NCBI GenBank assembly: GCA_945862235.1 | Contig: CAMAYU010000034.1 | Span: forward strand, 1 to 39,108 | From: Schlesneria paludicola DSM 18645 | GTDB taxonomy: Bacteria > Planctomycetota > Planctomycetia > Planctomycetales > Planctomycetaceae | Length of the DNA: 39,108 bases | Reading direction: 5' to 3' | In this document: piece by piece, positions 2,978 through 38,239 of the stretch | How positions within the stretch are numbered: the first letter of the stretch is position 1 | Layout: every line of letters begins with the position of its first letter | The notes under the pieces: model-generated | Told to the model about the DNA's origin: nothing | Database searches by the model: none | Seen by the model: only the letters and a program-made list of their open reading frames with translations | Made by a program: the position numbers and the translations under genes

Positions 2978-3066
2978 CACACCAACCCGAAGTGTGAACG
3001 AGGTCGTCGATCGACTTCGCCCTCGTTCACACTTCGGGTAGGTGTGGGTCAGACAAGTCTTGCCGG
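2978..3066. repeat. Palindromic repeat with conserved GGTCAGAC flank
   Basis: The arms 2978-3003 and 3021-3046 (CACACCAACCCGAAGTGTGA type) match with one mismatch over 26 bases. The flank 3047-3066 (GGTCAGACAAGTCTTGCCGG) is also shared, inverted, with the copy at 22291-22359, so the repeat unit is longer than its hairpin. It lies between the convergent lactonase and helicase genes and could serve as a bidirectional transcription end. Confidence 0.85.
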
Positions 3067-8441: not shown

Positions 8442-8740
8442 GAAACACCTCGTTGAAAACAGGGGGAGCCAAAATCGGGTTCGACCACGAATCCGCACGA
8501 ATCCGAAAGACGAGAAGAATTGGGAACACTGATCGCCGCTGATCGGATCAGAAATCAGTGCGGATCAGCGAAGATCGGGGTTCCTAATTCTTAGGTTTGT
8601 TGGATTGATAGTGTCGTGACTCGACGACCCTCAACAGGCTCCAACCGAACCGTATTTATTCCTGCTTCTCTTCCTGCTTCTCTTCCTGCTTCATTCGTGT
8701 GGATTCGTGAGATTCGTGGTTCCAACTCTTCTGCCGTTCC
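8442..8740. repeat. Gap with CACGAATC repeats and a 12-bp tandem repeat
   Basis: No gene is supported. The words CCACGAATCCGCACGAATCC (about 8485-8504) and GTGTGGATTCGTGAGATTCG (about 8697-8716) form a loose inverted pair of the second repeat family. Positions 8661-8692 hold a 12-bp unit CCTGCTTCTCTT repeated about 2.7 times. Confidence 0.7.
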
Positions 8741-10045
8741 TCAAACCGGATCAAACGCCGCCTCATACAGTTCGACCAAGCTCGATTCATCGACGCCACG
8801 TGGGTTGAACGTGCCGGTCCATTGTTTGGCCGCTTCGATTGCGAGTTGACGCAGCATCGTTCGCTCGACGCCACATGTCGAGAGGTATGTCGGCGAACCG
8901 GACGACTCAATCAGCAAGGCAACTCGTGCCGCGAGCAGTTCCGCCGCCCGAGGATCATCCGCCGCACACAGCCCGACATCTTCGGCCAATTTCCCGTACA
9001 GGTCGCTCACGACCGGCGCGTTGAAACGGATGACGTGCGGCAACATCAGACCAACGGCCAGTCCGTGCGTGATCCCGTAATGAGCCGTCAGCGGATTGGC
9101 GAGAGCATGCGTCGCTCCCAACATCGAGTTCTCAATCGCCGCGCCAGCGAGGTGGGCACCGAGGAGCATCGAGCCGCGGGCGGGAAGAAGTGACGAGTGA
9201 CGAGTGGCGAGTGACGAGCGGGAAGACGAAGACTCAACGTTGTCAGTCAACATGCCTTCCTTCTGACTTCTGACTTCTGACTTCCGACTTCTCTCCCCCA
9301 CCACTTCCTCAAACCCGCGTGCCAGCAGCTTCCACGCGCGACGGGCGAACAACTGCGAGATCGGGTTTCGTTTCGTCGTCACGTAGCTTTCGAGAGCGTG
9401 GCTGATGGCGTCGATTCCGGTCGCGGCGGTCACGCTGGCGGGCATGCTGAGCGTCAGTTCGGGATCGAGGATCGCGACTCGACACGCCGCCTTCTTGTCA
9501 CCGCAGGCCATCTTCATGTGCGTCTTCGCGTCGGCAATCAGCGCAAACGATTGAGCCTCACTCCCCGTCCCCGCTGTCGTCGGGATCGCGATCAGCGGCA
9601 GCATCGGTTTTGTCGCCTTGCCAATCCCCCAGTAGTCCTGCATCCGACCGCCGTTGGTCAGCAGGAAGTTGATCCCCTTCGCGCAATCCATGCTGCTCCC
9701 GCCGCCGACCGCGACAAGGAAGTCGATCCGCTCGGCCTTCGCGACGATCAGCCCTCGGTCCACGTCATCGGTCGTCGGGTTCGGCTGCACGTCCTTGAAG
9801 ACGGTCGTGTGCAGACCCGCTTCGCGCAGTGAGGAAACGGCTTTCGCGACATGCCCGGCGCGTTCAATGCCATCGTCGGTCACGACCAACACGCGCGATC
9901 CACCCAACTCGCGAGTCAGTTCTCCGAGCCGCGCGATCGTCCCGGCTCCGAAGACGACGCGCGTGCGCGGATCGAAGTCAAACGCCGCGAGTGCGTCGAT
10001 GTCGAAGGCATCGGAACGACGAGGTGCATCGAGAGGAACAGACAT
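8741..10045 (-). CDS. Iron-containing alcohol dehydrogenase with in-frame repeat insertion
   Basis: The start is placed at [10 protein letters not shown] (10045, 434 residues); a longer frame to 10126 exists but adds an unlikely leader, and neither start has a clear ribosome site. The N-terminal half binds NAD(P) ([55 protein letters not shown]). The C-terminal half carries metal-ligand segments [10 protein letters not shown] and [20 protein letters not shown]. The family oxidises or reduces alcohols and aldehydes with Fe2+ or Zn2+. Between [20 protein letters not shown] and [18 protein letters not shown] there are about 37 extra low-complexity residues ([10 protein letters not shown] ... SSLATRHSS) encoded by simple repeats at about 9185-9295. 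This explains why it is longer than the usual 385 or so residues. Confidence 0.9.
9185..9295. repeat. Simple repeats inserted in the alcohol dehydrogenase gene
   Basis: On the plus strand, runs of GTGACGAGTGACGAG (about 9190-9215) and of the 8-bp unit TTCTGACT (about 9261-9293, four to five copies) flank a short unique segment. The whole block keeps the reading frame of the host gene open and lies between two conserved domains of the enzyme. Confidence 0.8.
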
Positions 10046-10177
10046 CAAGGCAGGACTTTCAGCGGGCGGGCGATCAGTCAGCAGGCCATGTGCGCCAGAG
10101 TACCCGCAAGCGGGACAACCGAACAAGGCGACGCCAGCGCGACCAGACTCGGACCGGGTGCAAAATCACCCCCCGCA

Positions 10178-12151
10178 CTACGTCGCTTCGACCATCAGGA
10201 TCGGATCGACGTTGCCCGTCTTGTCGAAGCGACCGACGACGGTTTCGTTGCGGGTGTGATGGCCGAGGACCGCGCGCGATTCCCCCGTGTCTTTCAGACT
10301 GCGGAAGACCAGCAATTGCAGGTCGCCGAGCTTCAAGCGGTGACCGGCCGCGATGTCAGGCGTTACCACTCGCCCCGCTTCGGTCACGGTGAGCGATCTC
10401 CATTGTGCATCGGCTCGCGTGCGGTTGGGGTGCCAATCGAACAGGACCGGCGCGAAGAGGCCCTCACCTTGAGCCACCTGCTTCAACGACAGTCGATCCG
10501 CTGTGGCAGTGAATTCGTGCGGCGAACTGAGGACGCGATCTTGAGTCAGCGCCAGCGGGAAGACACGCGCTTTGAGACCCTTCATCGTCAGTTGTGCCTC
10601 GCGAGTTGGGATGTCGAGCCGCACGAGGATGTCGTCGGCGAGAGGCAGTGTTGCGTGGTACTCGATCCGATCGCTGGGAACACCCGACACCGAGTCGGCC
10701 AGCAACAGAAAGTGATCCGTGCGTGACAGCATGATGATTCGCTCGACCCGAATTTTTCCTGGCCCGCACATTTGCAGCTCGATGTAGTCCGCATCGGGAT
10801 CGCTCTGCCAGCAGACACACGACCACTCGGAGGCGAGTTCCACGATGGCGTCACCGATGGTCAAGTCGAGCGTCCAGTCGCCATGCAACAAGGGCTTGCC
10901 TGCGGCGGTCACGTCGATCTGAGGCAGTTGCCGGTGATGAGCCACCGCCACACTGTCCGCCTGCACTGACCAATCGCTGCGCAGGAGCGCGAACCGCGCC
11001 CAGTCCGATTGGTTCGATGGCATGGTCATGATGCCATCGCTTCGAACACGCTTTGCGGGCTGTCCGGCGGCGATCCGTTTGACCGATTGCAGATAACCGC
11101 CCTCGGGACTGACGGCGGGCAAGTCGAACATCTCCGCCGCCGCGATGAGAACGGGGAGCGGATTCAGCGCGTTGCCGTTCGACAGCGTCGCTTTCCCGTC
11201 AGGCCGACACAGCGGGATCGCACGCTCGACCGTCGAACGGAGCAACTCTTCCTGATCGTCCGTCCAGAGCTTCACGTCGAAGCGGCGCGCGACCAGCGTG
11301 GCGCGAATGAGCGGCGCGAGCCACAGCGACAACCGTTCGATCATCTCGGCACGCGGCGTCCCGTCGGTGTCCGCATTTTCGGTGAGCGTCCGCGCGAGCG
11401 CCTTGCGTCCCAACTTGACGAGCTCCGCGGCACCGGCCACATCGCTAAATAAGACGCCCGCCACGAATGGGACTTCACCACGCTCGATCAGTTGGACATC
11501 AGCGGGAACGGTCGGATCGTGATCGTCATCGCCCGGCATTGTCCTCATCTGTCGCACGACCTGCGCCAGCGTGTGCCGCCACAATTTCCATAATTGCTCA
11601 GGACGCAGCCGCGCGCCGGTGAGAGCCAACACGTCGAGGGACGCCACTAACCCGAAGACCGACACACCGCCGTCCTCTTCGGCCAGCCGACGAATCAACG
11701 GATCGACTCGTTGAGCCAATGTTTTCGGAGCCTTGTTCGTCGCACGCTTCTCTCCCGTGCGAGCCTTCCCCGACGAACCGCCCACCTTCGTGAGCAGCTT
11801 TCCCAAATCGACCTCATCCGGAAACGCGGCGAGTGACCACAGCGTCCTCGATCCGCAGCCGAGAGCCGATTCGCGCCCCGTGGACTGGGGTTGAAACGCC
11901 GCTTGCAGCGCGGTGCGCGCGCCCGTCAGATCGCCTTCGGCGGCAGCCGATTTCAACGTTGAGTCGGCCCCACGTTCCCAGGTCAGGGCTCGAAGAATCT
12001 CGACACCGGGTAATGCGGAAACATCGACCCCGCAGCCGCACAGACTGATCGGCACAGGCTTCGATTCGGGAGTTGCTTTTGCCGAAGTAGCCGTGCTGGC
12101 TGAAGAAACGGCAGCAGATTTGGAAGTAGAACGGGAACTGGAAACGGGCAT
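10178..12151 (-). CDS. Large uncharacterised protein, possible heparinase-type beta-sandwich C-terminus
   Basis: I do not recognise this 657-residue protein with confidence. Residues 1-30 are Ser/Thr/Ala-rich without a typical signal peptide. The central part (about 90-370) is mostly helical (LAQRVDPLIRRLAEE, LWKLWRHTLAQVVRQM, MIERLSLWLAPLIRATL). The C-terminal part (about 400-650) is beta-rich (DWARFALLRSDWSVQADSVA, PLLHGDWTLDLTIGDAI, RVERIIMLSRTDHFLLLADS). An alpha-barrel followed by a beta-sandwich recalls the layout of heparinase II/III-like proteins, but I see no catalytic motif and offer that only as a lead. The gene is separate from its neighbours on both sides. Confidence 0.6.
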   Translation of the reverse strand: MPVSSSRSTSKSAAVSSASTATSAKATPESKPVPISLCGCGVDVSALPGVEILRALTWERGADSTLKSAAAEGDLTGARTALQAAFQPQSTGRESALGCGSRTLWSLAAFPDEVDLGKLLTKVGGSSGKARTGEKRATNKAPKTLAQRVDPLIRRLAEEDGGVSVFGLVASLDVLALTGARLRPEQLWKLWRHTLAQVVRQMRTMPGDDDHDPTVPADVQLIERGEVPFVAGVLFSDVAGAAELVKLGRKALARTLTENADTDGTPRAEMIERLSLWLAPLIRATLVARRFDVKLWTDDQEELLRSTVERAIPLCRPDGKATLSNGNALNPLPVLIAAAEMFDLPAVSPEGGYLQSVKRIAAGQPAKRVRSDGIMTMPSNQSDWARFALLRSDWSVQADSVAVAHHRQLPQIDVTAAGKPLLHGDWTLDLTIGDAIVELASEWSCVCWQSDPDADYIELQMCGPGKIRVERIIMLSRTDHFLLLADSVSGVPSDRIEYHATLPLADDILVRLDIPTREAQLTMKGLKARVFPLALTQDRVLSSPHEFTATADRLSLKQVAQGEGLFAPVLFDWHPNRTRADAQWRSLTVTEAGRVVTPDIAAGHRLKLGDLQLLVFRSLKDTGESRAVLGHHTRNETVVGRFDKTGNVDPILMVEAT

Positions 12152-13686: not shown

Positions 13687-13767
13687 ACACCAACCCGAAG
13701 CGTGAGCGAGGACGCGAGCGAAGCGAGAGCAAGAACGGAGTGGCGTCCTCGCTCACGCTTCGGGTTT
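13687..13767. repeat. Palindromic repeat, ACACCAACCCGAAGCGTGAG type
   Basis: The left arm starts at 13687 and pairs with 13745-13767 (GTCCTCGCTCACGCTTCGGG type), with a GCGAGCGAAGCGAGAGC-like spacer. It lies between the divergent amidohydrolase and glycosyltransferase genes, in the leader of the latter, and keeps a frame open that spuriously extends the glycosyltransferase upstream. Confidence 0.88.
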
Positions 13768-13916
13768 ACGTGTCCGGCGACAAACCGTTCCATTTCGAAC
13801 CCCTGAAGGATATCCCTGACGCGGACTCTGGCGAGTTGTGTCACCGTTGGCGAGACTCATGTCCTCACGAAGATCCCTCGCTCAAAGACCGGTTCACTGG
13901 AAGGCGTTTGTTTCTG

Positions 13917-15839
13917 ATGTCGATCGCCACGAGTTCAGCCACTGAAAGTCAGCGAGAAAGCGTCGCGTGGCCGGTCCAGATTGCGGGCTGGTGCTGCGGG
14001 CTGGCGACATGCGTCGTCGCGATGCTCGGTTTGATCGCCGAGTGGGATCCGGGACTCGCCACCGCTCAGTTGCTCTGGTTGGCAGTGGCTCCGGTGGCGG
14101 TCATGCTGTCCCGATCACGGCGAGCCAAGCCGATCACACGAATGGAAACGCCGACCTCCGCACCACGCGGCTGGGCGACCGATTGGCTGCTGGCATTGTC
14201 CTTTGCGGCAGTCTCGTTCGCCGTTAGCTCCATGATCGCCACGCGGATCGGAGACCTCCCGCCCGCGTACCACGACGAGTACAGCTATCTCTTCCAAGCG
14301 CAGACGTTGTTGGCGGGACGGTTCTCGTTCCCGAGTTCACCAGTTCATCCCGAACTGTTCGACCAGATGCACGTCTTGAACGAAGGCCGCATGGCGTGTC
14401 GCTATTACCCCGGAACCGGTCTCTGGCTGGCACCGTTCGTCGCGCTGGGCCATCCGTATTGGGGGCCTCAATGGGCGGGAGCCGTCGCCACGTTGCTTCT
14501 CTTCTGGACGGGGCGAGAGCTGGGCGGGAGGTTCGTCGGCACGATCGCCGCGCTGACGATGGCGTTGTCGCCGGGAGTCGGCCTGTTCGGCAACATGCTG
14601 CTGGCTCACCATCCGACGTTGCTTGGCTTGGGAGTCTTTTTGCTGGGGATCACACGACTCGGGCGAACACGTTCCGGTTGGGATGCGGCGTTGGCGGGGA
14701 GCGGACTCAGCTTCGCCATGCTCTGCCGACCAATGACTGCGGCGGCAATCGGACTGCCGTTCGGAGTGGAAGTTGTATGGTGGCTGCTGCGCGGCGACTG
14801 CCAGGTCCAAACACCAACCCGCAGCGTGAGCAAGGATGTCGGGTTGTCCAGCGCGGACTCGTCCTTGCTCACGCTGCGGGTTGGTGTTGAAACCGGCTCT
14901 CGATTGCCGAAAGGCTCGCAGCGTCTGGCGGTACTGCTCGGCTTGGGACTCCCGCTCATCGCGGGCTTGTGCGTGATGCTCGCGTACAACCGTGACATCA
15001 CGGGCGAATGGCTCACCTCGCCCTATCAGCTTTACACCGACACCTACACGCCACGGCATGTCTTCGGCTTCAACAACGTCGTGCGCGGAGAGCAGCACGT
15101 CGGGCCGAAAGTCATCGAACACTACGACCTCTGGGCCGAGAACCTCACGCCGACGCTGGCCGCTTCTAATGTCTTCACGCGTGGAATCGCAAGCTGGTTG
15201 TGGACGCTCGACGTTCTGCCGCTGCTCTTCACCGTGATCGTCGTTGCCAGCGGGATGACGCTTCTCGACCGACGCTGGCGTCTCGTGGCGGCCTCGATTC
15301 TCAGCCTGCACGCCGCTCACGTTCCCTACTGGTACGTCGGCATCATGGGCTGGCATTACGTTTTTGAGACAGCGCCGCTGTGGTGCCTGCTGTTGGCCGC
15401 AGCGACACAGCGACTGTTCGCCGAATGGACCCACTCGCGCCGCAATGGACTCAAATTGTGGTGGTTCGGCTTGCTGACGCTGTCACTTGCCGGGAATTAC
15501 ATGGCTCCGACAGGCGGTTGGAAACCTCGCATCTTTCGCGGAATCAACGCACTTGCGCACCCTCGACGCCAGCAATCCGAAACTCGCCGGTGGATTGAAG
15601 CCACGGTGAAAGAACGACCGGCGCTCGTGCTTGTCGATCAGAGCGAGACCGAAGCGAGTCACCTCGACTTCGTCACCAACGAGCCAGGACTGTCGGGAGA
15701 CATCCTGTTCGGACGAATGCCGCTGCGCGACACCGACCTGTCCGTAATCGTCCGCGACTTCCCGAACCGCTCGGTCTTCGTTGCCAATCCCAAACGGAAG
15801 TCGATCCGCGCTGTTCAGCCTTCCAGTCGCCCGCGATGA
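13917..15839 (+). CDS. Polytopic membrane glycosyltransferase (GT39/ArnT-like)
   Basis: The start is placed at ATG 13917 (MSIATSSATESQ) because the longer frame from 13740 merely translates a palindromic repeat; GGAAGG lies 12 bases upstream. The 640-residue protein has many hydrophobic segments and the GT-C features of the protein mannosyltransferase/ArnT superfamily: an acidic motif in the first outer loop (PAYHDEYSYLFQAQTLLAGR), then RYYPGTGLWLAPF and GNMLLAHHPTLLGLGVFLLG. Such enzymes move sugars from polyprenyl-phosphate carriers to lipids or proteins on the outer face of the inner membrane. Donor and acceptor are unknown. Residues about 298-324 (TPTRSVSKDVG ... LLTLRVGVE) are encoded by a palindromic repeat inserted between two transmembrane segments. 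Confidence 0.8.
   Translation: MSIATSSATESQRESVAWPVQIAGWCCGLATCVVAMLGLIAEWDPGLATAQLLWLAVAPVAVMLSRSRRAKPITRMETPTSAPRGWATDWLLALSFAAVSFAVSSMIATRIGDLPPAYHDEYSYLFQAQTLLAGRFSFPSSPVHPELFDQMHVLNEGRMACRYYPGTGLWLAPFVALGHPYWGPQWAGAVATLLLFWTGRELGGRFVGTIAALTMALSPGVGLFGNMLLAHHPTLLGLGVFLLGITRLGRTRSGWDAALAGSGLSFAMLCRPMTAAAIGLPFGVEVVWWLLRGDCQVQTPTRSVSKDVGLSSADSSLLTLRVGVETGSRLPKGSQRLAVLLGLGLPLIAGLCVMLAYNRDITGEWLTSPYQLYTDTYTPRHVFGFNNVVRGEQHVGPKVIEHYDLWAENLTPTLAASNVFTRGIASWLWTLDVLPLLFTVIVVASGMTLLDRRWRLVAASILSLHAAHVPYWYVGIMGWHYVFETAPLWCLLLAAATQRLFAEWTHSRRNGLKLWWFGLLTLSLAGNYMAPTGGWKPRIFRGINALAHPRRQQSETRRWIEATVKERPALVLVDQSETEASHLDFVTNEPGLSGDILFGRMPLRDTDLSVIVRDFPNRSVFVANPKRKSIRAVQPSSRPR
14811..14888. repeat. Palindromic repeat inside the glycosyltransferase gene
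   Basis: The left arm 14811-14836 (ACACCAACCCGCAGCGTGAG plus CAAGGA) pairs perfectly with 14862-14887. It is the same family as the intergenic palindromes but lies wholly within a coding region and keeps the frame. The encoded segment falls in a hydrophilic loop, where an insertion should be tolerated. Confidence 0.92.
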
Positions 15840-22192: not shown

Positions 22193-22450
22193 GCCTCAAC
22201 CCCACCGGGCTTGCCCCGGTGGAAATCGGTGTTTGCACTACTCGCTTGTCGAAGCGGTTTCATTGGACGACCGGCAAGACGAGTCTGACCCACACCAACC
22301 CGAAGTGTGAACGAGGACGAAGTCGATCGACGGCCTCGTTCACACTTCGGATTGGTGTGTTCGGATCAATCATTTCTTCCCGGTCGCCTTATGAAAATGC
22401 GAGTAGTGCCACAACCTGAATCCACTGGGCAAGCCCGGTGGGGTTGAGGC
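22193..22450. repeat. Nested inverted repeats enclosing an ACCAACCCGAAG palindrome
   Basis: The outer arms GCCTCAACCCCACCGGGCTT plus GCCC (22193-22216 and 22427-22450) are perfectly complementary over 24 bases. A second pair, GCACTACTCGC (22235-22245 and 22399-22409), is also perfect. At the centre lies the palindrome 22291-22359 with its flank CCGGCAAGACGAGTCTGACC (22271-22290). The three symmetrical layers suggest one repeat inserted into another. No gene lies in this stretch. Confidence 0.88.
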
Positions 22451-27186: not shown

Positions 27187-27281
27187 AGTGGCCTCGGTGG
27201 TGATGCAGCTCTGATTGGGAAGCTGAAGGGGAGAGCTGCGGCCTAGTGGTCGAACAACCTTGTATTGCGGCTGTCAGCACT

Positions 27282-27345
27282 AGCCCGACGCGCAAGCGAG
27301 GGCTTCACTTTCTACAACGGTTTGCCCTCGCTTGCGCGTCGGGCT
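27282..27345. repeat. Palindromic repeat, AGCCCGACGCGCAAGCGAGG type
   Basis: The arms 27282-27303 and 27324-27345 (AGCCCGACGCGCAAGCGAGG plus GC) are perfectly complementary over 22 bases. Both orientations translate to CASG- or SPTRKRG-like peptides. It is related in design to, but different in sequence from, the ACCAACCCGAAG family. Confidence 0.88.
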
Positions 27346-27430
27346 GGTTGTTGCACAACCCCGCAATCTCAAGTTTTCCGACCACGAGCGATTCAACAGG
27401 AGGTCGAAGTCCCCCGCCGAACGTCCGTCC

Positions 27431-27444: not shown

Positions 27445-27546
27445 GGCGTAGTCTTGGTTGTGATCGACGTTTGTCACGAGCGTGAGTGCGTTGCGAGTTG
27501 TCCCGTTCAGTTCGTTTGCCACGGCAGGAATAAACTCCGACAACTG

Positions 27547-27632
27547 ACACACCAACCTGAAGCGTGAGCGAGGAGTCAGGTGGGCGCGAGCGTGTGAGTC
27601 GCGCCTCCTCGCTCACGCTTCGGGTTGGTGTT
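27547..27632. repeat. Palindromic repeat, ACACCAACCTGAAGCGTGAG type
   Basis: The left arm 27547-27574 pairs with 27606-27631 with one mismatch. The right arm touches the TAA stop of the ThuA-domain gene (27632-27634), so the repeat forms the 3' end of that gene and may act as its transcript end. Confidence 0.88.
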
Positions 27633-28486
27633 TACGGAGTCGCTGATCGCGGTTCGAGAACCAGGTCAGCTTCGGTAACGTCCACGTTCAGCCCGTCGGC
27701 AGGAATCGTTTGACTGACCGACCAGAGAACGCCTTGAAGGACCAAGCGGCGGTACTCGACCCGCTTCCAGTTGTCGTGGTAGTGGAGTCCACTGAACCCG
27801 AAGGACCGTCCGTGATCGGGACGCTCCCACGCCCAGGCCACCGTCTGGTCGGAGTCCTCCAGCGAGACTCGGATGAGCGGGACGAGTCGCTCCACTTGAG
27901 GCGGTTGCTTGAGGGCATAGTAGAACTCGTCGTGGACCTCGACCGGAGCGATGCCATTCAGGATCGGATGCGGTTCGCTCGACGGGTTGATGGTCGCGGT
28001 GAGGACTTTGTATTTGCGATCGGGTCCGCCGTGACAGTGCCCGAACAACGAGACGAAGTTCTCGACCGGTGCCGCCTCGCGCGTCCCCATTCCCCAGTGC
28101 AGGACGGCCAACCCACCGCCTCGTTTGGCCAGTCGTTGAAAGGCAGAAAGTCGCTCGGGGTCCGCACTCACCCACTTGGCTCCCTCCCCCAGGAAGAGGA
28201 CCGCACCGTCCGCACCGTCGAGTAACTCCGGACCGTCAGCCCACGGGTTGTCCGCCTGAACGACGACCGTTTGGACGCCGCCGCGATTCTGAAGCAGCTT
28301 CGCCAGCAGGCGGACTCCCGCCATGTACTCATGAGATGTTGCAGGGTGTCCGTCCGGCTTTTGGCCGAGCAGCAACACTCGCTTCGGACGGGAGGTCGGA
28401 TCGGCAGCGTCGGTCTCAACGGCGCGTCCGAACACAGCAGAGAGACCGATGAGCAGGATCGAGATGACTCGCGGAAGGTGCATCAT
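27632..28486 (-). CDS. Exported ThuA-domain protein
   Basis: The 284-residue protein has a signal peptide (hydrophobic ISILLIGLSAVFG, cleavage near AVETDAADP). The mature part is the class-I glutamine-amidotransferase-like ThuA fold: KRVLLLGQKPDGHPATSHEY, GADGAVLFLGEGAKWV, RGGGLAVLHWGMGT, PHPILNGIAPVEVHDEFYY and PDHGRSFGFSGLHYHDNW. ThuA was linked to trehalose utilisation in rhizobia; the many planctomycete copies are secreted and probably act on sugars, but the reaction is unknown. The start is one of two adjacent ATGs (28486 or 28483) without a clear ribosome site. The stop codon abuts a palindromic repeat. Confidence 0.88.
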   Translation of the reverse strand: MMHLPRVISILLIGLSAVFGRAVETDAADPTSRPKRVLLLGQKPDGHPATSHEYMAGVRLLAKLLQNRGGVQTVVVQADNPWADGPELLDGADGAVLFLGEGAKWVSADPERLSAFQRLAKRGGGLAVLHWGMGTREAAPVENFVSLFGHCHGGPDRKYKVLTATINPSSEPHPILNGIAPVEVHDEFYYALKQPPQVERLVPLIRVSLEDSDQTVAWAWERPDHGRSFGFSGLHYHDNWKRVEYRRLVLQGVLWSVSQTIPADGLNVDVTEADLVLEPRSATP

Positions 28487-28596: not shown

Positions 28597-28763
28597 GGTG
28601 AGCCGGGTGGCGTCAGCCCAATGGCACTCACTTTGAACGGCACGTCGCTAGCCGCCGGTGAATGGTGTTGTGCTTCCAAGCAAACAACCGGCGGCTAGCG
28701 CCGTGCCGCTCACGGGGTGAATGACAAAGTGAGTGCCATTGGGCTGACGCCGCCCGGCTCACC
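28597..28763. repeat. Large nested palindrome (167 bp)
   Basis: The outer arms 28597-28635 and 28725-28763 (GGTGAGCCGGGTGGCGTCAG type) match at 38 of 39 positions. The inner arms CGGCACGTCGCTAGCCGCCG plus GT (28638-28659) and 28687-28708 match at 21 of 22. The element fills most of the gap between the divergent ThuA-protein and membrane-protein genes and could form a long cruciform or RNA hairpin. The inner and outer parts look like two independent repeats, one inserted in the other. Confidence 0.9.
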
Positions 28764-31071: not shown

Positions 31072-31140
31072 GGGTGCGTGGAGTCTTCGGTACGCACCGC
31101 GTTTGGCTCAGGCCGTGCGTTCCGAAGACTCCACGCACCC
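31072..31140. repeat. Inverted repeat, GGGTGCGTGGAGTCTTCGG type
   Basis: The arms 31072-31090 and 31122-31140 are perfectly complementary over 19 bases and extend imperfectly inward (TACGCAC with GTGCGTT). It lies between the membrane protein stop and the ABC gene start and keeps an upstream frame open that spuriously lengthens the ABC protein. Confidence 0.85.
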
Positions 31141-31163
31141 GACCCGCCTCGGAGTTCCCGACC

Positions 31164-32756
31164 GTGACCGAACCTCTCATCCAATTCGATCGCGTGACCA
31201 AGAGGTTCGATGCAGTCGTTGCTCTGGAGGACGTTTCGTTCGACGTGAGGCCGGGAGAATTCCTCGCCCTGTGTGGCGAGAACGGGGCGGGCAAAAGCAC
31301 GCTGATGAAAATCCTGTCCGGCGTCATCACGGACTACGACGGGCAGATTCTCGTCGCGGGTGAGCCACTCGTATTGAACGGGACGCGCGATGCCGAGGCG
31401 CGCGGGATCAGCATCATTCACCAAGAGCTGAACCTTGTTGGCGATCTGTCCGTCGCCGCGAACATCTTTCTCGGACGCGAACTCCGCTCGCCGCGGGGAC
31501 TGCTCGACGACCGCCGGATGGAGCGTGAGGCGGCCGCGCAGTTCGAGTCGCTCGAATGCCGCATCGACCCGTGTGCGCCGGTCCGATCTCTCCGGATCGG
31601 CGATCAACAGTTGGTGGAGATCGCGAAGGCGTTGGGAGCGGGCAGGGGACGTGGGGCAGCAGCGAGCAAGCAGGAAGCAGTAGCCCGAGGCCTGTCTTCG
31701 GACTCCGGTCTCCCGACTCCATCCCGCATCCTCATCATGGACGAGCCGACGAGCGCGCTCACCGAGTCCGAGGTCGAGCGTCTGTTCCGCATCATCGCTC
31801 GGCTGCGCGAGCAGGGGGTCACGATCATCTACATCTCGCACAAGATGGACGAAGTGTTTCGCAATGCCGATCGCATCACCGTGCTGCGTGATGGCAAAGT
31901 TGTAAAGACTCTCGAACGGACGGCGACGACTCCGCGCGAGATCACGCATCTGATGGTCGGTCGCGATGTCGGCGCGAGTGATTACGGCGCGAATCGTCAG
32001 CCGGGCGAGACGGTGTTGAGCGTGACGGACCTCGCGCTCCCTTGGCGCGATCACGCGCGGCAGTGGCGCTTGAAAGACATCTCGTTCGTCGTGCGTCGTG
32101 GGGAAGTGATCGGCTTCGCCGGGCTGATGGGAGCGGGACGAACGGAGTTGTTGGAATGTCTCTACGGTGCGAGTGCCGAACCGCCACTCGGTCGCATCGA
32201 ATTGGCAGGGACCGCCGTGGAGTTCGCTCATCCCGAACAAGCGCTGCGCGCGGGGATCGCCCTCGTCACGGAAGACCGCAAGCGGTACGGGTTGTTCGCG
32301 CCGATGAACGTGCGCGAACACATCACGCTCTCGTCTCTGCACACGGTCGCGACGAGTGGGTTCCTCAACACGACGGCGGAACGAGACGCCGCCGATGAGT
32401 CAATCGCCGCGCTGCGAGTGAAGACCGACGGACAGTCGGCCGCGATCAGCAGTCTGAGTGGAGGCAACCAACAGAAGTGCATCATCGCGCGGGCGCTCCG
32501 GACAAAACCGAAGTTGCTGCTGCTCGACGATCCGACGCGCGGCATTGATGTCGGCGCGAAGGCGGAGATCTACCGGCTGATCGATCAACTGTGCGCGCAG
32601 GGACTGGCGATCATCATCACCTCGAGCGAGCTGCCCGAACTGATCGCCGTCTGCGACCGCATCTTCGTCCTGTGTGAAGGCCGCCTGACAGGCGAGTTTG
32701 CACGCGGCGAATTCACCGAACAGAAGCTGATGGAAGCGGCGACCAAGCTGGCGTAG
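31164..32756 (+). CDS. Sugar ABC transporter ATPase (CUT2, RbsA/MglA-like), two ATPase domains
   Basis: The start is placed at GTG 31164 (VTEPLIQFDRV) with GGAG nine bases upstream, giving 530 residues. Domain 1 has GENGAGKST (38-46), LRIGDQQLVEIAKAL, Walker B ILIMDEPTSALTESE and ISHKMDEV. Domain 2 has the degenerate P-loop GLMGAGRTE typical of RbsA, the signature SLSGGNQQKCIIARAL and LLLLDDPTRGIDVGAKAEIY. This is the ATPase of CUT2 importers for ribose, galactose and related sugars. The permease and binding protein genes that normally adjoin it are absent. Residues about 158-187 (AGRGRGAAASKQEAVARG ... LPTPS) are an extra low-complexity insertion between signature and Walker B, a short loop in other members. 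Confidence 0.93.
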   Translation: MTEPLIQFDRVTKRFDAVVALEDVSFDVRPGEFLALCGENGAGKSTLMKILSGVITDYDGQILVAGEPLVLNGTRDAEARGISIIHQELNLVGDLSVAANIFLGRELRSPRGLLDDRRMEREAAAQFESLECRIDPCAPVRSLRIGDQQLVEIAKALGAGRGRGAAASKQEAVARGLSSDSGLPTPSRILIMDEPTSALTESEVERLFRIIARLREQGVTIIYISHKMDEVFRNADRITVLRDGKVVKTLERTATTPREITHLMVGRDVGASDYGANRQPGETVLSVTDLALPWRDHARQWRLKDISFVVRRGEVIGFAGLMGAGRTELLECLYGASAEPPLGRIELAGTAVEFAHPEQALRAGIALVTEDRKRYGLFAPMNVREHITLSSLHTVATSGFLNTTAERDAADESIAALRVKTDGQSAAISSLSGGNQQKCIIARALRTKPKLLLLDDPTRGIDVGAKAEIYRLIDQLCAQGLAIIITSSELPELIAVCDRIFVLCEGRLTGEFARGEFTEQKLMEAATKLA

Positions 32757-33070
32757 CAGCTTGTCGAAAAATGTAGGACAGCCTTTTGATGGACAGGTAG
32801 AAGTCTTGCCTTGGGTGCCACGGTGACGGCTTTGCGTGGCCGTGTCTTCGCGACAACCCAAGCAGGGCCACGCAAAGCCGTGACCGTGGCACCCAACTCA
32901 ATACCTGCGTAAGTGTTATGGGCACGCTAATTCTCGGATAGCCTCTGAGCGGGGCGGCGTAAGAAAACGGGCTGACGCCCAAGAATCAGGGGGCTGACGC
33001 CGCCCCGCTCAGAAACCCCTGACACGCCTCCCGCTCAGAAATGCCTCACGTTTGGCCGCGTGCGGTGCTT
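32757..33070. repeat. Gap with two palindromic repeats
   Basis: No gene is supported. Repeat one: arms 32811-32841 and 32866-32896 (TTGGGTGCCACGGTGACGGC type) match at 30 of 31 positions, and 32828-32859 recurs inverted at 198-230. Repeat two: arms CTGAGCGGGGCGGCGT (32945-32960) and 32997-33012 are perfectly complementary. GGGCTGACGCC words inside also resemble the outer arms of the palindrome at 28597-28763. Confidence 0.88.
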
Positions 33071-33751
33071 TCACTTTTTCTCCAGCACCCACTGCGTAGC
33101 GTGGCGGACGAGTTCGAGGCCGCTCTGGAAATCGAGCTTTGTCTTAATGCGGAACCGGTAAGTTTCGACCGTCTTGATTCCCACGTGCAATCGTTCGGCG
33201 ATCTCGGCAGAGGTGAAACCTTGTCCGAGCAACTCGAAGATTTCCAACTCGCGGTCGGAGAGGCTGCTGATGGGGGATTGCTGCAAGGGCTGATTGCCGT
33301 CCCGCAGTTGTTGGAGGATTCGGTTGTTCACGGCTTCGCTGACGAAAATGCTTCCGGCGAGGACTTGCCGAATGGCGGCCACCAGTTTCTCCCGGGCTTC
33401 CTGTTTATGCAGGAAGCCCATCGCACCGGCACGCAGAGAGCGCTCGGCGAAGAGCGACTCGTCGCTCATGGAGAGGACGAGCATCTTGGTTGGCACGTTT
33501 CGGGCCTTGATCCGTTGGATCAGGTCGAGGCCGCTGCCGTCGGCAAGTGACAGGTCGATGATGGCGAGGTCGGGTTGTTTCGAGTCGATCAGTGCCACGG
33601 CCTCCACCATCGTGGCGGCTTCACCACAGACTTGCAGATCACGGTGACGCGACAGGAGCGCGGACAGTCCTTCGCGGACGATCGGGTGATCGTCCACGAT
33701 CAGGATGCTTGCGGCTCGAACCAGCGCGGGCGGTTTGGTAGCGACAGTCAT
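33071..33751 (-). CDS. NarL/FixJ-type response regulator
   Basis: The 226-residue protein has an N-terminal receiver (acidic pair D20-D21, phospho-acceptor D66 in LAIIDLSLADG, LVLSMSDESL, and K in GFLHKQEA) and a C-terminal LuxR-type helix-turn-helix (about 165-215: LSDRELEIFELLGQGFTSAE then IAERLHVGIKTVETYRFRIK). Its ATG overlaps the TGA of the upstream kinase gene by four bases (ATGA), so the two are translationally coupled and form a two-component pair. Target genes are unknown; autoregulation is possible. Confidence 0.95.
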   Translation of the reverse strand: MTVATKPPALVRAASILIVDDHPIVREGLSALLSRHRDLQVCGEAATMVEAVALIDSKQPDLAIIDLSLADGSGLDLIQRIKARNVPTKMLVLSMSDESLFAERSLRAGAMGFLHKQEAREKLVAAIRQVLAGSIFVSEAVNNRILQQLRDGNQPLQQSPISSLSDRELEIFELLGQGFTSAEIAERLHVGIKTVETYRFRIKTKLDFQSGLELVRHATQWVLEKK

Positions 33752-36700
33752 TTTGGAAGTCCCTTGTCGAGAGTGCAGGTGATGCGTGTGCCGCGGTCGT
33801 GGGCTGAGTCGATCGTCAACTTCGCACCGATCAGACTGGCTCGGTACCTCATGGTTTTGAGGCCGAGGCCGGATGTCGCGGTGGCGAGATCAGGGAAACC
33901 GATGCCGTTGTCGCAGATGCTGAGCGTGATGTGGCCTTCGTCTTCTTCATCCAACGAGAGCGTGATGAGGTTCGCATGACTGTGTTTGATTGCGTTGGTG
34001 GTCGCTTCTTGGGCGATGCGGAACAGGTTCATGGCCCGCAGGCTGTCGTCGATTTCGGCGGAGCCGGTGAAACGGCAGGTGACGCGGGTCTGTGCTGTGA
34101 TGTTGGCGGCGAGATCTTCGAGCGCGAGCTGGAGACCCTCGGCACTGAGCTCGACGGGGATCAAACCCTTGGAGACTTCGCGGACTTGTTTCAGCGCCCG
34201 GTCGAGACCTTCGACGAGCTTCTTCGCGGTGGCGGTGTAAGCCGCCGCATGAGCTAGGAAGGCCGCTTCAGGGGACGGGGAGTTTTCCGGAGAGCCGGCG
34301 GCGCGCCGGCTTGATTCCTCAGACGAAACTAACGGGCGAGCCGCCTGTTCTACGAGGGTTTCACTTCCCTGCAGCGACCGCTCCGCCAGTGAGTCGGCGA
34401 GACTCGCGGCGAGGAAGCCGAGGCCGGTCAGTTCTTGGCCGAGGCCATCGTGCAAGTCTTGGCCGATGCGGCGTTGTTCTTGCGACACGCTATTCAGGAC
34501 TTCGCGTTCGACCAGTTGGCGTTCCAACGTCTTCTGATTTACTGCTAATACTGCTGCCGCTGCTGCTGCTGCTGCTGCGCGGCTCTCGGCCACGTCATTG
34601 ATCCCCAGCAGAATGTGCGTCGGCCGACCCTCTGGGAAGCGGACGCAGCGGGCGTTGAGCAGCATCACGCGCTGGCCGATGGTGGGAAAGTTGTGCTCCA
34701 ACTCAAAGCCTTCGAAGGATGTGTTCTGGGGCAGGATTTCTTCCAGCAGCACTCGCAGTCGAGGAATGTCCCACTGACTGTTGCCCAACGAGTAGATCAG
34801 CCGTTGTTCGGTCTCTTCCCGAGTCACTTGAAAGGCATCGTAGAACGCGCGGTTGGCGAGCTGGACACGGAGTTCGGCATCGAGCACCACGAGCGGTTGC
34901 GTGCAGGTTTCGACGATGCTCACGGCGTAGTCGCGCGACACTTCCAACTCGTGCTCGCGTCGCTTAAGGGCGTCGATGTCGGAGAGCTTGATGATCGCGC
35001 CGTCGATTTTGTTGTCGGTCGTTTTGTAGGGTCGCACCACCAGCCTGTACCAACGGCCGTCGGTGTCTTGCACCTCGCGCTGCTGCGTTTCCAGCGAGTG
35101 AATCACCTGCTGCAACAGTGGCTCCAGATCGGGGACGTTGATCTTCAGTTGGAAGTCGCCGATCGGACGGCCAATGTCGCTGGAGATCAAACGGAAGAGA
35201 CGCTGGGCACTCGGACTGAAGCGGCGAATGAGCAACGCGCGGTCCAGTAAGACCGTCGGAATATTGACCGCGTCCATCAGGTTTGTCAGGTCGTCGCTGA
35301 GCTGTGCGGAAATCGCGATCCGGCATTGCAGTTCTTCATTGACCGTCGTCAGCTCTTCGTTGGTCGCCTGCAATTCTTCCTTGGCGGTTTCGAGTTCCTC
35401 GTTCGTACTTTGCAGTTCTTCGTTGCTGGAGACGATCTCTTCGTTGGCCGCGGTCAGCTCCTCGTTGCCCGCTTCTTGGGCCTCGATGACCGATTGCAGG
35501 TAGCTCCTGGTCGCGTCGAGTTCGTGCCGCAACCGCACGACCTCGTGGTCCCGCGCGTTGAGGTCGGCCTGCGTAAGATCACCCGCAGCATGAGCGAGGG
35601 CGGACGCTGCGAGTGACTCGGACGAGCCGAGGGATTCCGAATCTGGGGCGTCAGGGAGCAACCGCCCTCGTTGACGCTGCGGGTTGGTGTTGCTGCATGA
35701 GAACAGCACGACGAAGAAGCGCTTGCTCGCAGCGGGGATCAGCAGCGGCAGGACTTCGAGCGAGATCTCGCGCGACTCGTCGTTGGACCGGATGAAGATT
35801 CGGTCACAGTGCTGCGGCACGCCGTCGCGGCGCGCCGCTTCGAGTGCCTCACGCAACGCGACCAACAAGCCGTCTCGCGCCATTTGCAGCAGGTCGAAAT
35901 TGGGCGTTCCCGGAGCGGGTTCCAAATACATCCCGGTCTGTCCGCGAAACTGCACGATTTGCAGCGAGTCATTGACGACGACTCCCGCCGGCGCGTACTT
36001 GGCCAACACGATCCGATCCGCTTCACGTTGCACGTCCAGCAGCGACCGTCCCGGATCGCTGGCCCGTTCGAAAACGGACGGTCCGGTGATCGAAGTCCGA
36101 CCGGGAGTGACGTCGAACGTCATCCGGTGCAGCGTTTCCCGGTGCAGCGTTTCCCGGCGCACAAAGAACCGACGCGACTTGTCGAGCACATCGAATAGCT
36201 CGGTGAAGCCCCCCACCGATTCGGACTCGCCCAACACCAGCACGCCGCCGGGCCGCAGCGCGTAATGGAAGATCGGCAGCACGCGGTATTGCAGCTCGGG
36301 ACCGAGATAGATCAGCAAGTTGCGGCAACTGACGAGGTCCAACTGCGAGAAGGGGGGGTCCTTCGTCACGTCTTGCCGGGCGAAGTTACAGAGATCGCGA
36401 ACGTTCTTCAGAATCTGGTATTGCACGCCGGTCTTCACGAAGTAGCGCCGCAATCGTTCGGGCGAAACGTCGTCCGCGATGCTGTCGGGATAGACGCCCG
36501 CCCGCGCGATGCCGATCGCCCGCTCCGAGATGTCCGTCGCGAAAATCTTGATCGGCGTTGACAGACCCTGCTCGTGCAAGAACTCCAACAGACTGATCGC
36601 CAGCGAATAGGCCTCTTCCCCCGTCGAACAGCCGGGGACCCAGACCCGTAAGGGCTCATTGGTCGGACGCCCTGCGACCAGCTTCGGCCAGACGGTCTCA

Positions 36701-37743
36701 CGCAAGGCGAGGAACATGTCCGGATCGCGGAAGAACCGCGTGACTTGAATCAGCACCTCTTGAAACAGCGCCTGCAATTCGGCGGGATCGTCTTGCAAAC
36801 GCTGGGCATAGAGCTGCAATGTCGCGTGCTGGCCAAGCACCATCCGTCGTTCGATTCGCCGTCGCAGCGTCGGCGCCTTGTAGTGCGTGAAGTCCACACC
36901 GACCGCAGCGCTCAAGAGCCGCACGACGGTGTGGAAGTCGGCTTCGTCCGTTGCGGCCATCAGCTGGAACGCGCTCGCGTCCGGTTCTGGTTTTGACTGT
37001 TCTTTCGCTGATGTTTCGCTCGAACCGGGGGCGAGTGCCCTGCGGCTGATGGGATCACTGCCGGTACTCGCCGTCTGCAATCCGCCGCTCAAATACGGAT
37101 GCGATCCGAGCCGCGACAGCTCGGTCGCGATCAGTGGCGGCGACATCACGAAGTCCACGCAGCCCGCGTTGAACGCGCTGCGCGGCATGCCGTCATGCTC
37201 GGCGGTGTCGTCCTGCACGAAGGTGATCCCGCCCTGCCCCTTGATCGCCTTCAAGCCGAGCGTCCCGTCGGTCCCGGTCCCCGACAGAATCACGCCGACT
37301 GCCTGACTGTTTCGCGCGACCGCCAGCGACTGCAGGAACACATCCACCGGCAGATTCAGTCCGGGCGCTGCGCGGCGTGGAACCAACCGCAATCGATTCC
37401 GCTCGACCACCATGTTCGCGTTCGGCGGGATGACGTAGACGTGATCCGCTTGCAGCTCCGTCCCATCGCGCACTTCGCCCACCACCATCGTCGTGACGTG
37501 CGACAGAATCTCGGCCATCGCACTCTTGTGGTCGGGGTCCAGATGCGTGACGACAACAAACGCCATCCCGCTCCGCGAAGCCATCGTCCTAAAGAACTCG
37601 GTCAACGCTTCGAGTCCCCCCGCCGAAGCGCCGATCCCCACGACCGGAAACAGCGCGGCGTCTGTACCGCTCGCCCCCGGTGGAACCGTAACAGTCGCGG
37701 GAGTTAGGGGCGTCGTGCCTGTCGCTTTGTTTTGCTTCGCCAT
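33748..37743 (-). CDS. CheB-CheR-PAS-histidine kinase fusion
   Basis: The start is placed at ATG 37743 (MAKQNKATGTTPL, 1331 residues); the longer frame to 37923 only translates a palindrome. Domains in order: CheB methylesterase (about 32-205; S40 in GIGASAGG, H67 in THLDPDH, D159 in SGTGTDG), CheR methyltransferase (about 265-520; SAM site GCSTGEEAYS 371-380), a PAS domain (about 565-680), a coiled coil of NEEL repeats (about 735-810), two further PAS domains (about 818-1050), a poly-Ala tract, a HisKA_3 helix (RRIGQDLHDGLGQELTGL) and a HATPase (FRIAQEATTNAIKH, DNGIGF). CheB and CheR remove and add methyl groups on receptor glutamates; such fusions occur in sensors unrelated to swimming. It is coupled to the NarL-type regulator. 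Two repeat insertions lie in linkers (see 34262-34372, 35582-35691). Confidence 0.93.
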   Translation of the reverse strand: MAKQNKATGTTPLTPATVTVPPGASGTDAALFPVVGIGASAGGLEALTEFFRTMASRSGMAFVVVTHLDPDHKSAMAEILSHVTTMVVGEVRDGTELQADHVYVIPPNANMVVERNRLRLVPRRAAPGLNLPVDVFLQSLAVARNSQAVGVILSGTGTDGTLGLKAIKGQGGITFVQDDTAEHDGMPRSAFNAGCVDFVMSPPLIATELSRLGSHPYLSGGLQTASTGSDPISRRALAPGSSETSAKEQSKPEPDASAFQLMAATDEADFHTVVRLLSAAVGVDFTHYKAPTLRRRIERRMVLGQHATLQLYAQRLQDDPAELQALFQEVLIQVTRFFRDPDMFLALRETVWPKLVAGRPTNEPLRVWVPGCSTGEEAYSLAISLLEFLHEQGLSTPIKIFATDISERAIGIARAGVYPDSIADDVSPERLRRYFVKTGVQYQILKNVRDLCNFARQDVTKDPPFSQLDLVSCRNLLIYLGPELQYRVLPIFHYALRPGGVLVLGESESVGGFTELFDVLDKSRRFFVRRETLHRETLHRMTFDVTPGRTSITGPSVFERASDPGRSLLDVQREADRIVLAKYAPAGVVVNDSLQIVQFRGQTGMYLEPAPGTPNFDLLQMARDGLLVALREALEAARRDGVPQHCDRIFIRSNDESREISLEVLPLLIPAASKRFFVVLFSCSNTNPQRQRGRLLPDAPDSESLGSSESLAASALAHAAGDLTQADLNARDHEVVRLRHELDATRSYLQSVIEAQEAGNEELTAANEEIVSSNEELQSTNEELETAKEELQATNEELTTVNEELQCRIAISAQLSDDLTNLMDAVNIPTVLLDRALLIRRFSPSAQRLFRLISSDIGRPIGDFQLKINVPDLEPLLQQVIHSLETQQREVQDTDGRWYRLVVRPYKTTDNKIDGAIIKLSDIDALKRREHELEVSRDYAVSIVETCTQPLVVLDAELRVQLANRAFYDAFQVTREETEQRLIYSLGNSQWDIPRLRVLLEEILPQNTSFEGFELEHNFPTIGQRVMLLNARCVRFPEGRPTHILLGINDVAESRAAAAAAAAAVLAVNQKTLERQLVEREVLNSVSQEQRRIGQDLHDGLGQELTGLGFLAASLADSLAERSLQGSETLVEQAARPLVSSEESSRRAAGSPENSPSPEAAFLAHAAAYTATAKKLVEGLDRALKQVREVSKGLIPVELSAEGLQLALEDLAANITAQTRVTCRFTGSAEIDDSLRAMNLFRIAQEATTNAIKHSHANLITLSLDEEDEGHITLSICDNGIGFPDLATATSGLGLKTMRYRASLIGAKLTIDSAHDRGTRITCTLDKGLPK
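34262..34372. repeat. Palindrome-bearing insertion in the kinase domain
   Basis: GCCGGC (34294-34299) and GCCGGC (34305-34310) lie in a GC-rich symmetric stretch. The encoded block SSEESSRRAAGSPENSPSPE and its neighbours split the HisKA_3 helix region, between LGFLAASLADSLAER and KKLVEGLDRALKQVREVSKG. Comparable kinases usually lack such a block. Confidence 0.6.
34545..34583. repeat. GCT trinucleotide tract coding poly-alanine
   Basis: On the plus strand a run of CTG/GCT triplets, interrupted by CCG, encodes ESRAAAAAAAAAVLAV on the minus strand, just before the kinase helix. A pure triplet tract is prone to length change. Confidence 0.85.
35582..35691. repeat. Palindromic repeat inside the kinase gene
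   Basis: CCCGCAGCATGAGCGAGGG (35582-35600) pairs imperfectly, with three mismatches, with 35665-35683, followed by GGTTGGTGTT to 35691. It is the same family as the intergenic ACCAACCCG palindromes. Read on the minus strand it encodes NTNPQRQRGRLLP ... ALAHAAG between the first PAS domain and the coiled coil. Confidence 0.85.
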
Positions 37744-38239
37744 GCTCGATTTCCGATTCTGAAACGTCGTCGTCAACTGTAATGGCGATGGCCTCAGGGG
37801 CATCGCCTTGCTTGGTCTGTGCAACCTGTCGAGTGGGACCAGCGGCGCTTCACTGCGCCGGCCCACCATGACTACTCGACGTTTTCCGATGGTGGGCCGG
37901 CGCTCGAACGGAGCTGGTCCCACCCCACGTTGAACAAGGAGATGGCCTGATACGAGTGCAAACTACAACGGTCGCCACTCATCCGAAAGCCGTTGTAGTG
38001 TCAGGGAATTTCTTACACAAAGAGTCTGTGGTAAACGTACATGCGTTTTTTAATTTTGTTCCGATAATAGAGAGCGCCTCGGGAGAAGGCTGTCGGTTAG
38101 TAATTCCTCGGCAGGCAGCCGAGCTGAGAGTCAGAGCAGTCGATCGGATGCGGCTGTTCAAAGTGACACTTCACTGAACTCAGATCACTCCCGAGGCTTC
38201 GAATTTTTTGAAGGTACCACAGTCGAACAGGGGGACTTC
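37744..38239. promoter_or_regulatory. Divergent gap with two inverted repeats
   Basis: About 500 bases between the divergent kinase and small-protein genes. One palindrome has two perfect arm pairs: GTGGGACCAGC (37833-37843 with 37913-37923) and GCGCCGGCCCACCAT (37855-37869 with 37889-37903). A second, ACTACAACGG (37962-37971) with 37990-37999, has an 18-base loop and could be an operator. Promoters for both genes must lie here; I could not place them. Confidence 0.6.

Follow-up and report, generated by a model that had tools for sequence, protein, structure and literature searches.

A gene for a GT-C-fold membrane protein in Schlesneria paludicola DSM 18645 contains, within its open reading frame, a palindromic element that is probably REP-like or MITE-like, spread by a Y1 transposase, filtered by selection and tolerated in a disordered loop of the protein. 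Comparison of sequences gives good support for treating the segment as an insertion, with selection for frame among the copies of its family. The element is found on the forward strand of the window, by which the whole analysed stretch of 39,108 nucleotides is meant. Its left arm (14810-14836, 27 nt) reads T-P-T-R-S-V-S-K in the frame of the host gene, the spacer that follows (14837-14861) has 25 nt, and the right arm (14862-14888, 27 nt) reads L-L-T-L-R-V-G-V. The two arms, 25 nt apart, are 100% complementary. The sequence-only reading had described a perfect palindrome with 26-bp arms at 14811-14888; the perfect pairing stands, and the measured arms are 27 nt long, which places the palindrome at 14810-14888. 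Folding of positions 14800-14910 as a single-stranded DNA hairpin yielded -45.1 kcal/mol, compared with a mean of -18.5 for 200 shuffled sequences (z -10.0; 0/200 as good).

The best match of the focal region in the genome (C14:51011-51102, query positions 32-123) is 85% identical over 92 nt and is located inside an unrelated Ser/Thr kinase gene. A further match, C9:59441-59483, covers query positions 81-123 at 93%. The kinase match runs 14 nt past the palindrome, and for this reason the tail at 14889-14902 (14 nt, common to the kinase copy and in part to a third copy) is probably part of the inserted unit, as judged from the alignment. The genome-wide match shows the focal spacer to be related to that of the kinase copy; no similar spacer was found for it among the strong pairs of the survey described below (E 0.01).

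The host gene occupies positions 13917-15839 of the forward strand and encodes 640 amino acids, an assignment based on the open reading frame, homologues and an AlphaFold2 model matched to folds in the PDB. The reading frame is open from a GTG at 13740 to 15839, with neither a stop nor a frameshift at the element, as had been claimed from the letters of the sequence. The ATG at 13917 is the likelier start because the protein that begins there is matched by homologues from about its residue 1-5 onwards, and because positions 13740-13766 form the right arm of a further copy, which lies between genes directly upstream of the host gene (13692-13766). No Pfam or NCBIfam family was matched by the host protein, and likewise none by its closest homologue. 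The AlphaFold2 model (mean pLDDT 85.1, pTM 0.88) gave 25 matches in the PDB at E 0.001 or better, and those ranked at the top are GT-C enzymes; oligosaccharyltransferase subunits, PglB, Pmt4, ArnT and ALG12 are among the matched structures. The earlier designation of the gene as GT39-like is thus right as to fold, whereas the family itself found no support in Pfam or NCBIfam. The named relatives of the gene are mostly metagenome-assembled genomes labelled Schlesneria.

The element lengthens a loop of the protein by about 27 to 31 residues and leaves the reading frame unbroken. In the model it is placed between helices 272-292 and 332-362, where residues 298-312 and 314-328 have pLDDT values below 50, so that the low-confidence stretch comprises the 31 residues 298-328 save residue 313. 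The earlier proposal that about 27 residues had been added to a loop between membrane helices agrees with this predicted structure. In an alignment of 43 non-identical homologous ORFs, three of which (L027, L029 and L063) are cut near the loop by contig ends, the segment is present in 0/43. Between the flanking anchors the query has 46 aa, compared with 1-33 aa for the homologues, 11 of which have 15 aa. Subtraction of 31 residues from the query (26 of the palindrome and the following ETGSR) brings its loop to 15, the length found most often. Because the loop varies in length, the edges of the gap are not defined to the residue; the closest homologue, L036, has 25 aa there. The alignment that the sequence-only reading had proposed therefore places the segment as absent from relatives, with a gap whose edge is blurred, and neither of the outcomes that it had named as refuting, namely homologues with the same segment and a broken gene, was encountered.

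Palindromes with arms of at least 9 nt occur in only two of the 44 loops checked, that of the query and that of L047, a homologue from another planctomycete. The L047 palindrome is unrelated, sits in the same loop and has exact arms of 15 nt (arm TTAGCCGCGAGGCGC); its arm pattern has 14 matches in the L047 genome, two of which are this copy, and 0 for the reversed control. The loop insert of L048 (G029), repetitive-looking at the protein level, was considered as a further case and set aside, its DNA having no palindrome arms of 9 nt or more.

The variation of the loop among homologues, from 1 to 33 aa, would also be expected of an ordinary, fast-evolving native loop that happened to be palindromic by chance. 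This reading retains scarcely any probability: at the DNA level the segment is a member of a family with hundreds of copies in and between unrelated genes, its best genome match being the kinase gene, and membership of a dispersed family refutes a native origin. An artefact of assembly, or a decayed gene, is hardly more credible. Short inverted repeats can mislead assembly; however, an open host frame of 640 codons extends to both sides of the element, the coding scores of the flanks are high (25 and 49), and ten further genes with strong pairs show the same arrangement. The pseudogene reading was rejected on the open frame and the high coding scores on both sides.

The arm pattern occurs 536 times (273 + 263) at no more than three mismatches in the 6.83 Mb genome, which is represented by one draft assembly of 377 contigs, and the reversed pattern occurs once; the earlier assignment of the palindrome to a dispersed family is borne out by these counts. 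In the window, further copies are found outside named genes (1661-1719), at 2978-3046 with subfamily C arms (GAAGTGTGAACG), at 22291-22359 also with subfamily C arms, at 27279-27348 with subfamily B arms (AGCCCGACGCGC) and at 27538-27642, adjoining a ThuA-like gene. A survey was carried out on the window and 120 further stretches of the genome, 2,410,488 bases in all (2.41 of 6.83 Mb, 35%). Part of it was chosen around perfect-match copies; five regions of one 20-region set and 60 further regions were not. The survey yielded 475 arms within three mismatches of four core variants, compared with 0 when the cores were reversed, and these arms form 280 elements, 195 of them strong head-to-head pairs, with spacers of 11-195 nt in the first survey. 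The arm is matched in 25 of the 99 genomes searched, the present one included.

The family has the terminal inverted repeats of MITEs and no gene of its own. Neither a target-site duplication nor a clean empty site was found at the DNA level. The search for empty sites within repeats of the same genome returned 59 junction-crossing matches, nearly all of them self-matches, and the four non-self matches inspected are nested palindromes. Two copies (L114 15294-15356 and L089 13358-13420) are embedded centrally in another palindrome (GAACTTGTCCAAGAACAACACC...), as though palindromes were targets for insertion or expanded by nesting. In the own-genome survey, a departure from the arm consensus is common to both arms of one copy in 93/310 cases, roughly three times the 33 expected, which fits a hairpin as the unit. 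Spacers of the A-type copies are mostly dissimilar, a similar one being found for 17/57 with the GAA arm and 13/36 with the GCA arm, whereas 33/51 of subfamily B and 18/20 of subfamily C share theirs with another copy. Simple copy-and-paste of full-length units is consequently unsupported for A-type copies, their spacers being mostly dissimilar; copies of subfamilies B and C do share spacers. An autonomous element bounded by these arms as terminal repeats was also considered, and the survey offered no good candidate.

The relation of the elements to genes was assessed with a home-made codon model trained on long ORFs, which assigned the right frame in 97% of 400 windows drawn from its own training ORFs. 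Among the 271 elements away from the ends of the surveyed stretches, 157 have no coding sequence next to them, 92 have it on one side only and one has it on opposite strands. The remaining 21 have coding sequence of one strand on both sides, and of these 17 are in phase and open, one is in phase with a stop and three are out of phase with a stop. The outcome was stable across ten settings of the coding threshold. The 17 in-frame elements are made up of 12 strong pairs, two weak pairs and three single arms, the last being the weakest cases. These counts replace those of an earlier, smaller survey of 173 elements, in which 14 were in phase and open, three out of phase and one in phase with a stop. 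A search for intragenic copies with a bias of frame, which had been put forward from the sequence of this one gene, thus found both, at 17 in phase and open to three out of phase. The family avoids genes: 17/271 elements (those in phase and open) compare with 1274/2389 random places of the same stretches (53%; P about 1e-57).

Lengths obey a related rule. The core-to-core spacer is divisible by three in 11/12 of the in-frame strong pairs, as compared with 38/174 of those flanked by coding sequence on one side at most (Fisher P 1.6e-6); the only in-frame strong pair off the rule is L170, with a spacer of 25. Since the conserved ends extend to position -7 (7 nt outside the core) on each side, the unit amounts to 54 nt plus the spacer, and a spacer divisible by three gives whole codons. 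The rule is not exclusive to in-frame copies, as the three out-of-phase elements have spacers of 48, 126 and 96, which are divisible by three too. At least two of these three supply or follow the stop codon of the preceding gene, and one of the out-of-phase cases is the copy at which the C52 transposase gene discussed below ends. The left arm can be read through in two frames (PTRSVSE and NPQREQG), and the third meets TGA after HQPEA in GCGTGAGC. Pairs with GCAG arms are intragenic more often than those with GAAG arms (8/40 and 2/64, respectively; P 0.012). We propose that insertion would not be aimed at any frame and that selection would remove most insertions into genes; the surviving intragenic copies would be those with a unit length that is a multiple of three and an arm read in one of the two open frames.

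Ten host ORFs were scanned against Pfam and NCBIfam. They encode a PP2C phosphatase with two in-frame copies, ThiD2-ThiE, the Ser/Thr kinase, GlnE, an amine oxidase (weak pair), an AddA/UvrD-like helicase, an HTTM protein, an FtsK/EssC-like ATPase, HpnE (weak pair) and the CheB/CheR hybrid kinase of the window. The gene for the last, a CheB/CheR-PAS-histidine kinase hybrid on the reverse strand (33748-37923), is the second in-frame host in the window, and its copy (35580-35685, reverse strand) reads NTNPQRQRG...SALAHAAGDLT. The kinase copy resides between VTDFGLAKR and GTPGYMAPE, that is, in the activation segment, and is absent from 13/13 aligned congeneric orthologues in 13 genomes (13 of the 15 non-own loci returned were aligned), the flanks of which are 64-83% identical. 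Eleven of those 13 genomes have no arm match at two mismatches or fewer. The kinase has 37 extra residues, about 10 beyond what the palindrome accounts for. The AddA case is not clean, given a variable linker and a nearest homologue that likewise possesses a long one of its own. The two in-frame copies of the PP2C-type gene (L072 7760-10195, G000:C5) are at 8584-8674 and 9199-9265, and the stop codon of the gene comes from a third copy, at 10185, which is one of the three out-of-phase elements. The HTTM-domain gene (L115 3248-5380, G000:C105) holds one in-frame copy from each of two unrelated palindrome families.

The search for an enzyme that could move the element returned six Y1_Tnp matches in the genome. 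One of them, C52:9971-10444, is a Y1 transposase gene of 158 aa with a subfamily B palindrome on each side; no arms are near the other five loci. Twenty of the matches came with DNA. Among the 19 C52 homologues with DNA, those of at least 46% identity have family arms within 260 nt in 8/12 cases, seven of them on both sides, compared with 0/7 below 46%, a boundary drawn after the data had been seen; the reversed control gave 0/20 loci. A homologue in G021 (C1:956172-956624) is situated amid A-type arms at 956062, 956140, 956641 and 956748. The transposase proteins have the motifs NHVH and Y----Q, and that of C52 has NHVH, WWT and YVKEAQ. The clade-specific flanking arms together with these motifs make a class-3-like clade of Y1 (HUH) transposases the likely mobiliser, the movement itself being inferred. 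Only subfamily B flanks a transposase in the present genome, and the mobiliser of the focal A-type copy is consequently proposed from other genomes such as G021. The gene of a class-3-like transposase in G005 (L248) itself contains a family arm, in frame as LARRASEG. Copies would then be spread by a Y1 tyrosine transposase of the class 3 TnpA_Y1 kind that acts on the single-stranded hairpin.

Another spreading agent, which could be a RAYT, a DDE transposase that treats the arms as its terminal inverted repeats, or hairpin-associated strand switching, is the less likely account, though one to be taken seriously. One of the six Y1_Tnp matches is a strong REP_Tyr_transpos protein, a clear RAYT on C195 (190 bits, cut-off 80); the mostly dissimilar spacers of A-type copies are not predicted by simple copy-and-paste of whole units; and some copies are nested in other palindromes. 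However, no family arms were found within about 1.5 kb of the RAYT locus, no single-arm pair in the survey encloses a gap of transposase size save one of 4.4 kb, and the association of arms with transposase genes across genomes is specific to one clade. A Y1 transposase of the class-3-like clade is accordingly preferred as the candidate agent.

It could also be that the inserted peptide has been kept for its usefulness, with the element supplying proteins with new linkers and loops, one of which might regulate the kinase by way of the activation segment. At the position of the kinase copy, between DFG and APE, a long insert could have consequences; the GCAG-arm pairs are the more often intragenic, and two unrelated palindromes sit in the same loop of the glycosyltransferase homologues. 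Against this, the strong depletion inside genes is as expected for mostly harmful insertions, the insert in the glycosyltransferase is predicted to be disordered, and no orthologue of either this protein or the kinase has a conserved copy, which speaks against long-term retention. Retention for usefulness is thereby rendered improbable, and any benefit to the host from the inserted peptide is hypothetical. In the reading of a tolerated insertion, the peptide would be borne because it lies in a loop predicted to be disordered, and its effect on the host protein would most likely be neutral or slightly harmful.

In-frame palindromes of this kind have precedents. The Rickettsia palindromic elements (RPE), as described in parts of two papers (PMC2229807, PMC10969869), are dispersed palindromes of 105-146 bp that insert in frame in unrelated genes, thereby lengthening the product by a peptide, and form a stem-loop with terminal inverted repeats, and an RPE-bearing guanylate kinase is made and active in Rickettsia. 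The comparison with RPE drawn from the sequence at the outset is apt as an analogy, the planctomycete palindrome being likewise dispersed, in frame in unrelated genes and absent from homologues. It differs in its unit of about 79-81 nt in the focal copy, in that most copies are outside genes, and in that relatives have a repeat-flanked transposase gene, whereas none is named for RPE in those parts of the two papers. Intragenic REPs of the GTAG and CGTC superfamilies are reported within ORFs in many species, one of them Opitutus terrae, a member of the PVC group; dimers encode 20 to 30 amino acids, repeats supply stop codons, and Planctomycetes are among the phyla mentioned as having such repeats (Di Nocera et al. 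2013, PMC3733652). The tags that define these superfamilies are missing in the planctomycete family (5 and 10 of 390 ends, outer 12 nt), which rules out membership.

The class 3 TnpA_Y1 transposases, in the relevant sections of PMC6006769, occur mainly in Planctomycetes, Acidobacteria and Proteobacteria, have NHVH and Y----Q motifs and are flanked by atypical hairpins that can reach high copy number, about 600 in Solibacter usitatus. The present system resembles them in the C52 protein with NHVH and YVKEAQ, in the hairpins at both of its sides and in its high copy number, and the palindromes flank an NHVH / Y----Q gene as do those of class 3, with the restriction that in the present genome these are of subfamily B only. 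As regards the 5' foot CnGA of the class 3 structures, the string C.GA was counted, as a raw number, in the outer 12 nt of 79/390 ends, and these may or may not correspond to a foot. The main text of PMC6006769 contains neither the word 'intragenic' nor 'in-frame'; hairpins inside other genes are described here. Correia, ERIC and other bacterial MITEs are summarised in part of PMC2229807 as small, non-autonomous palindromes, some of them fused in frame in genes, with short terminal inverted repeats and target-site duplications. In the planctomycete family, by contrast, most of the unit consists of the arms, and no target-site duplication turned up. A search of the open-access literature, which did not extend to subscription papers and supplements, returned no paper that describes palindromes in frame in genes of planctomycetes. 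As far as these searches show, the in-frame palindrome is a known kind, and what is new is the phylum, the sequence family, the link to a transposase and the extent across several families.

A second dispersed palindrome (arm TGAGCGGGGCGGCGTCAGCC; 211 arms, reversed control 4) has 124 non-edge elements, of which seven are open and in phase, whereas out-of-phase ones number zero. It shows no significant spacer rule, with 4/5 in one class compared with 36/75 elsewhere. This is the other family represented in the HTTM gene. The second family, the transposase link and the L047 palindrome go beyond what the sequence-only reading had foreseen. The window contains further dispersed palindromes of the TGAGCGGGG...CCCCGCTCA kind at 28597-28763 and 32944-33013. 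Two other oddities were seen in it. An iron-containing alcohol dehydrogenase (8741-10126) has a 40-residue insert at residues 279-318 that interrupts the match to ADH_Fe_C; it was considered as a dispersed repeat and rejected, its DNA having no other copy in the 2.41 Mb survey. An ABC transporter ATPase (31074-32756) has an odd stretch, GRGRGAAASKQEAVARGLSSDSGLPTPSR, ahead of its ILIMDEPTS motif.

A wider reading, which we advance tentatively and hold to be possible rather than probable, is that planctomycetes have a transposase-driven process of peptide insertion. Hairpins with two open frames would be mobilised by class-3-like transposases, the survivors would consist of whole codons, and unrelated core proteins would repeatedly gain loops of 26-50 residues; the cases cited are the activation segment of the kinase, thiamine synthase, GlnE, HpnE and the CheB/CheR kinase. 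Several such families would coexist in one genome, different palindromes would hit the same loop across genera, and the GCAG-arm subfamily may be a gene-adapted lineage.

The in-frame insertion of palindromes, best known from Rickettsia, is extended by these results to a phylum of large, free-living genomes, and is tied to a transposase clade that can be tested. Because many planctomycete genomes carry the family and many lack it, comparisons of the same protein with and without the insert are available. For annotation the finding carries a warning: segments of the form TPTRSVSE...SLTLRVGV, NPQREQG...LAHAAG or LARRASEG within proteins of planctomycetes are probably mobile repeats that have been translated, and not conserved motifs.
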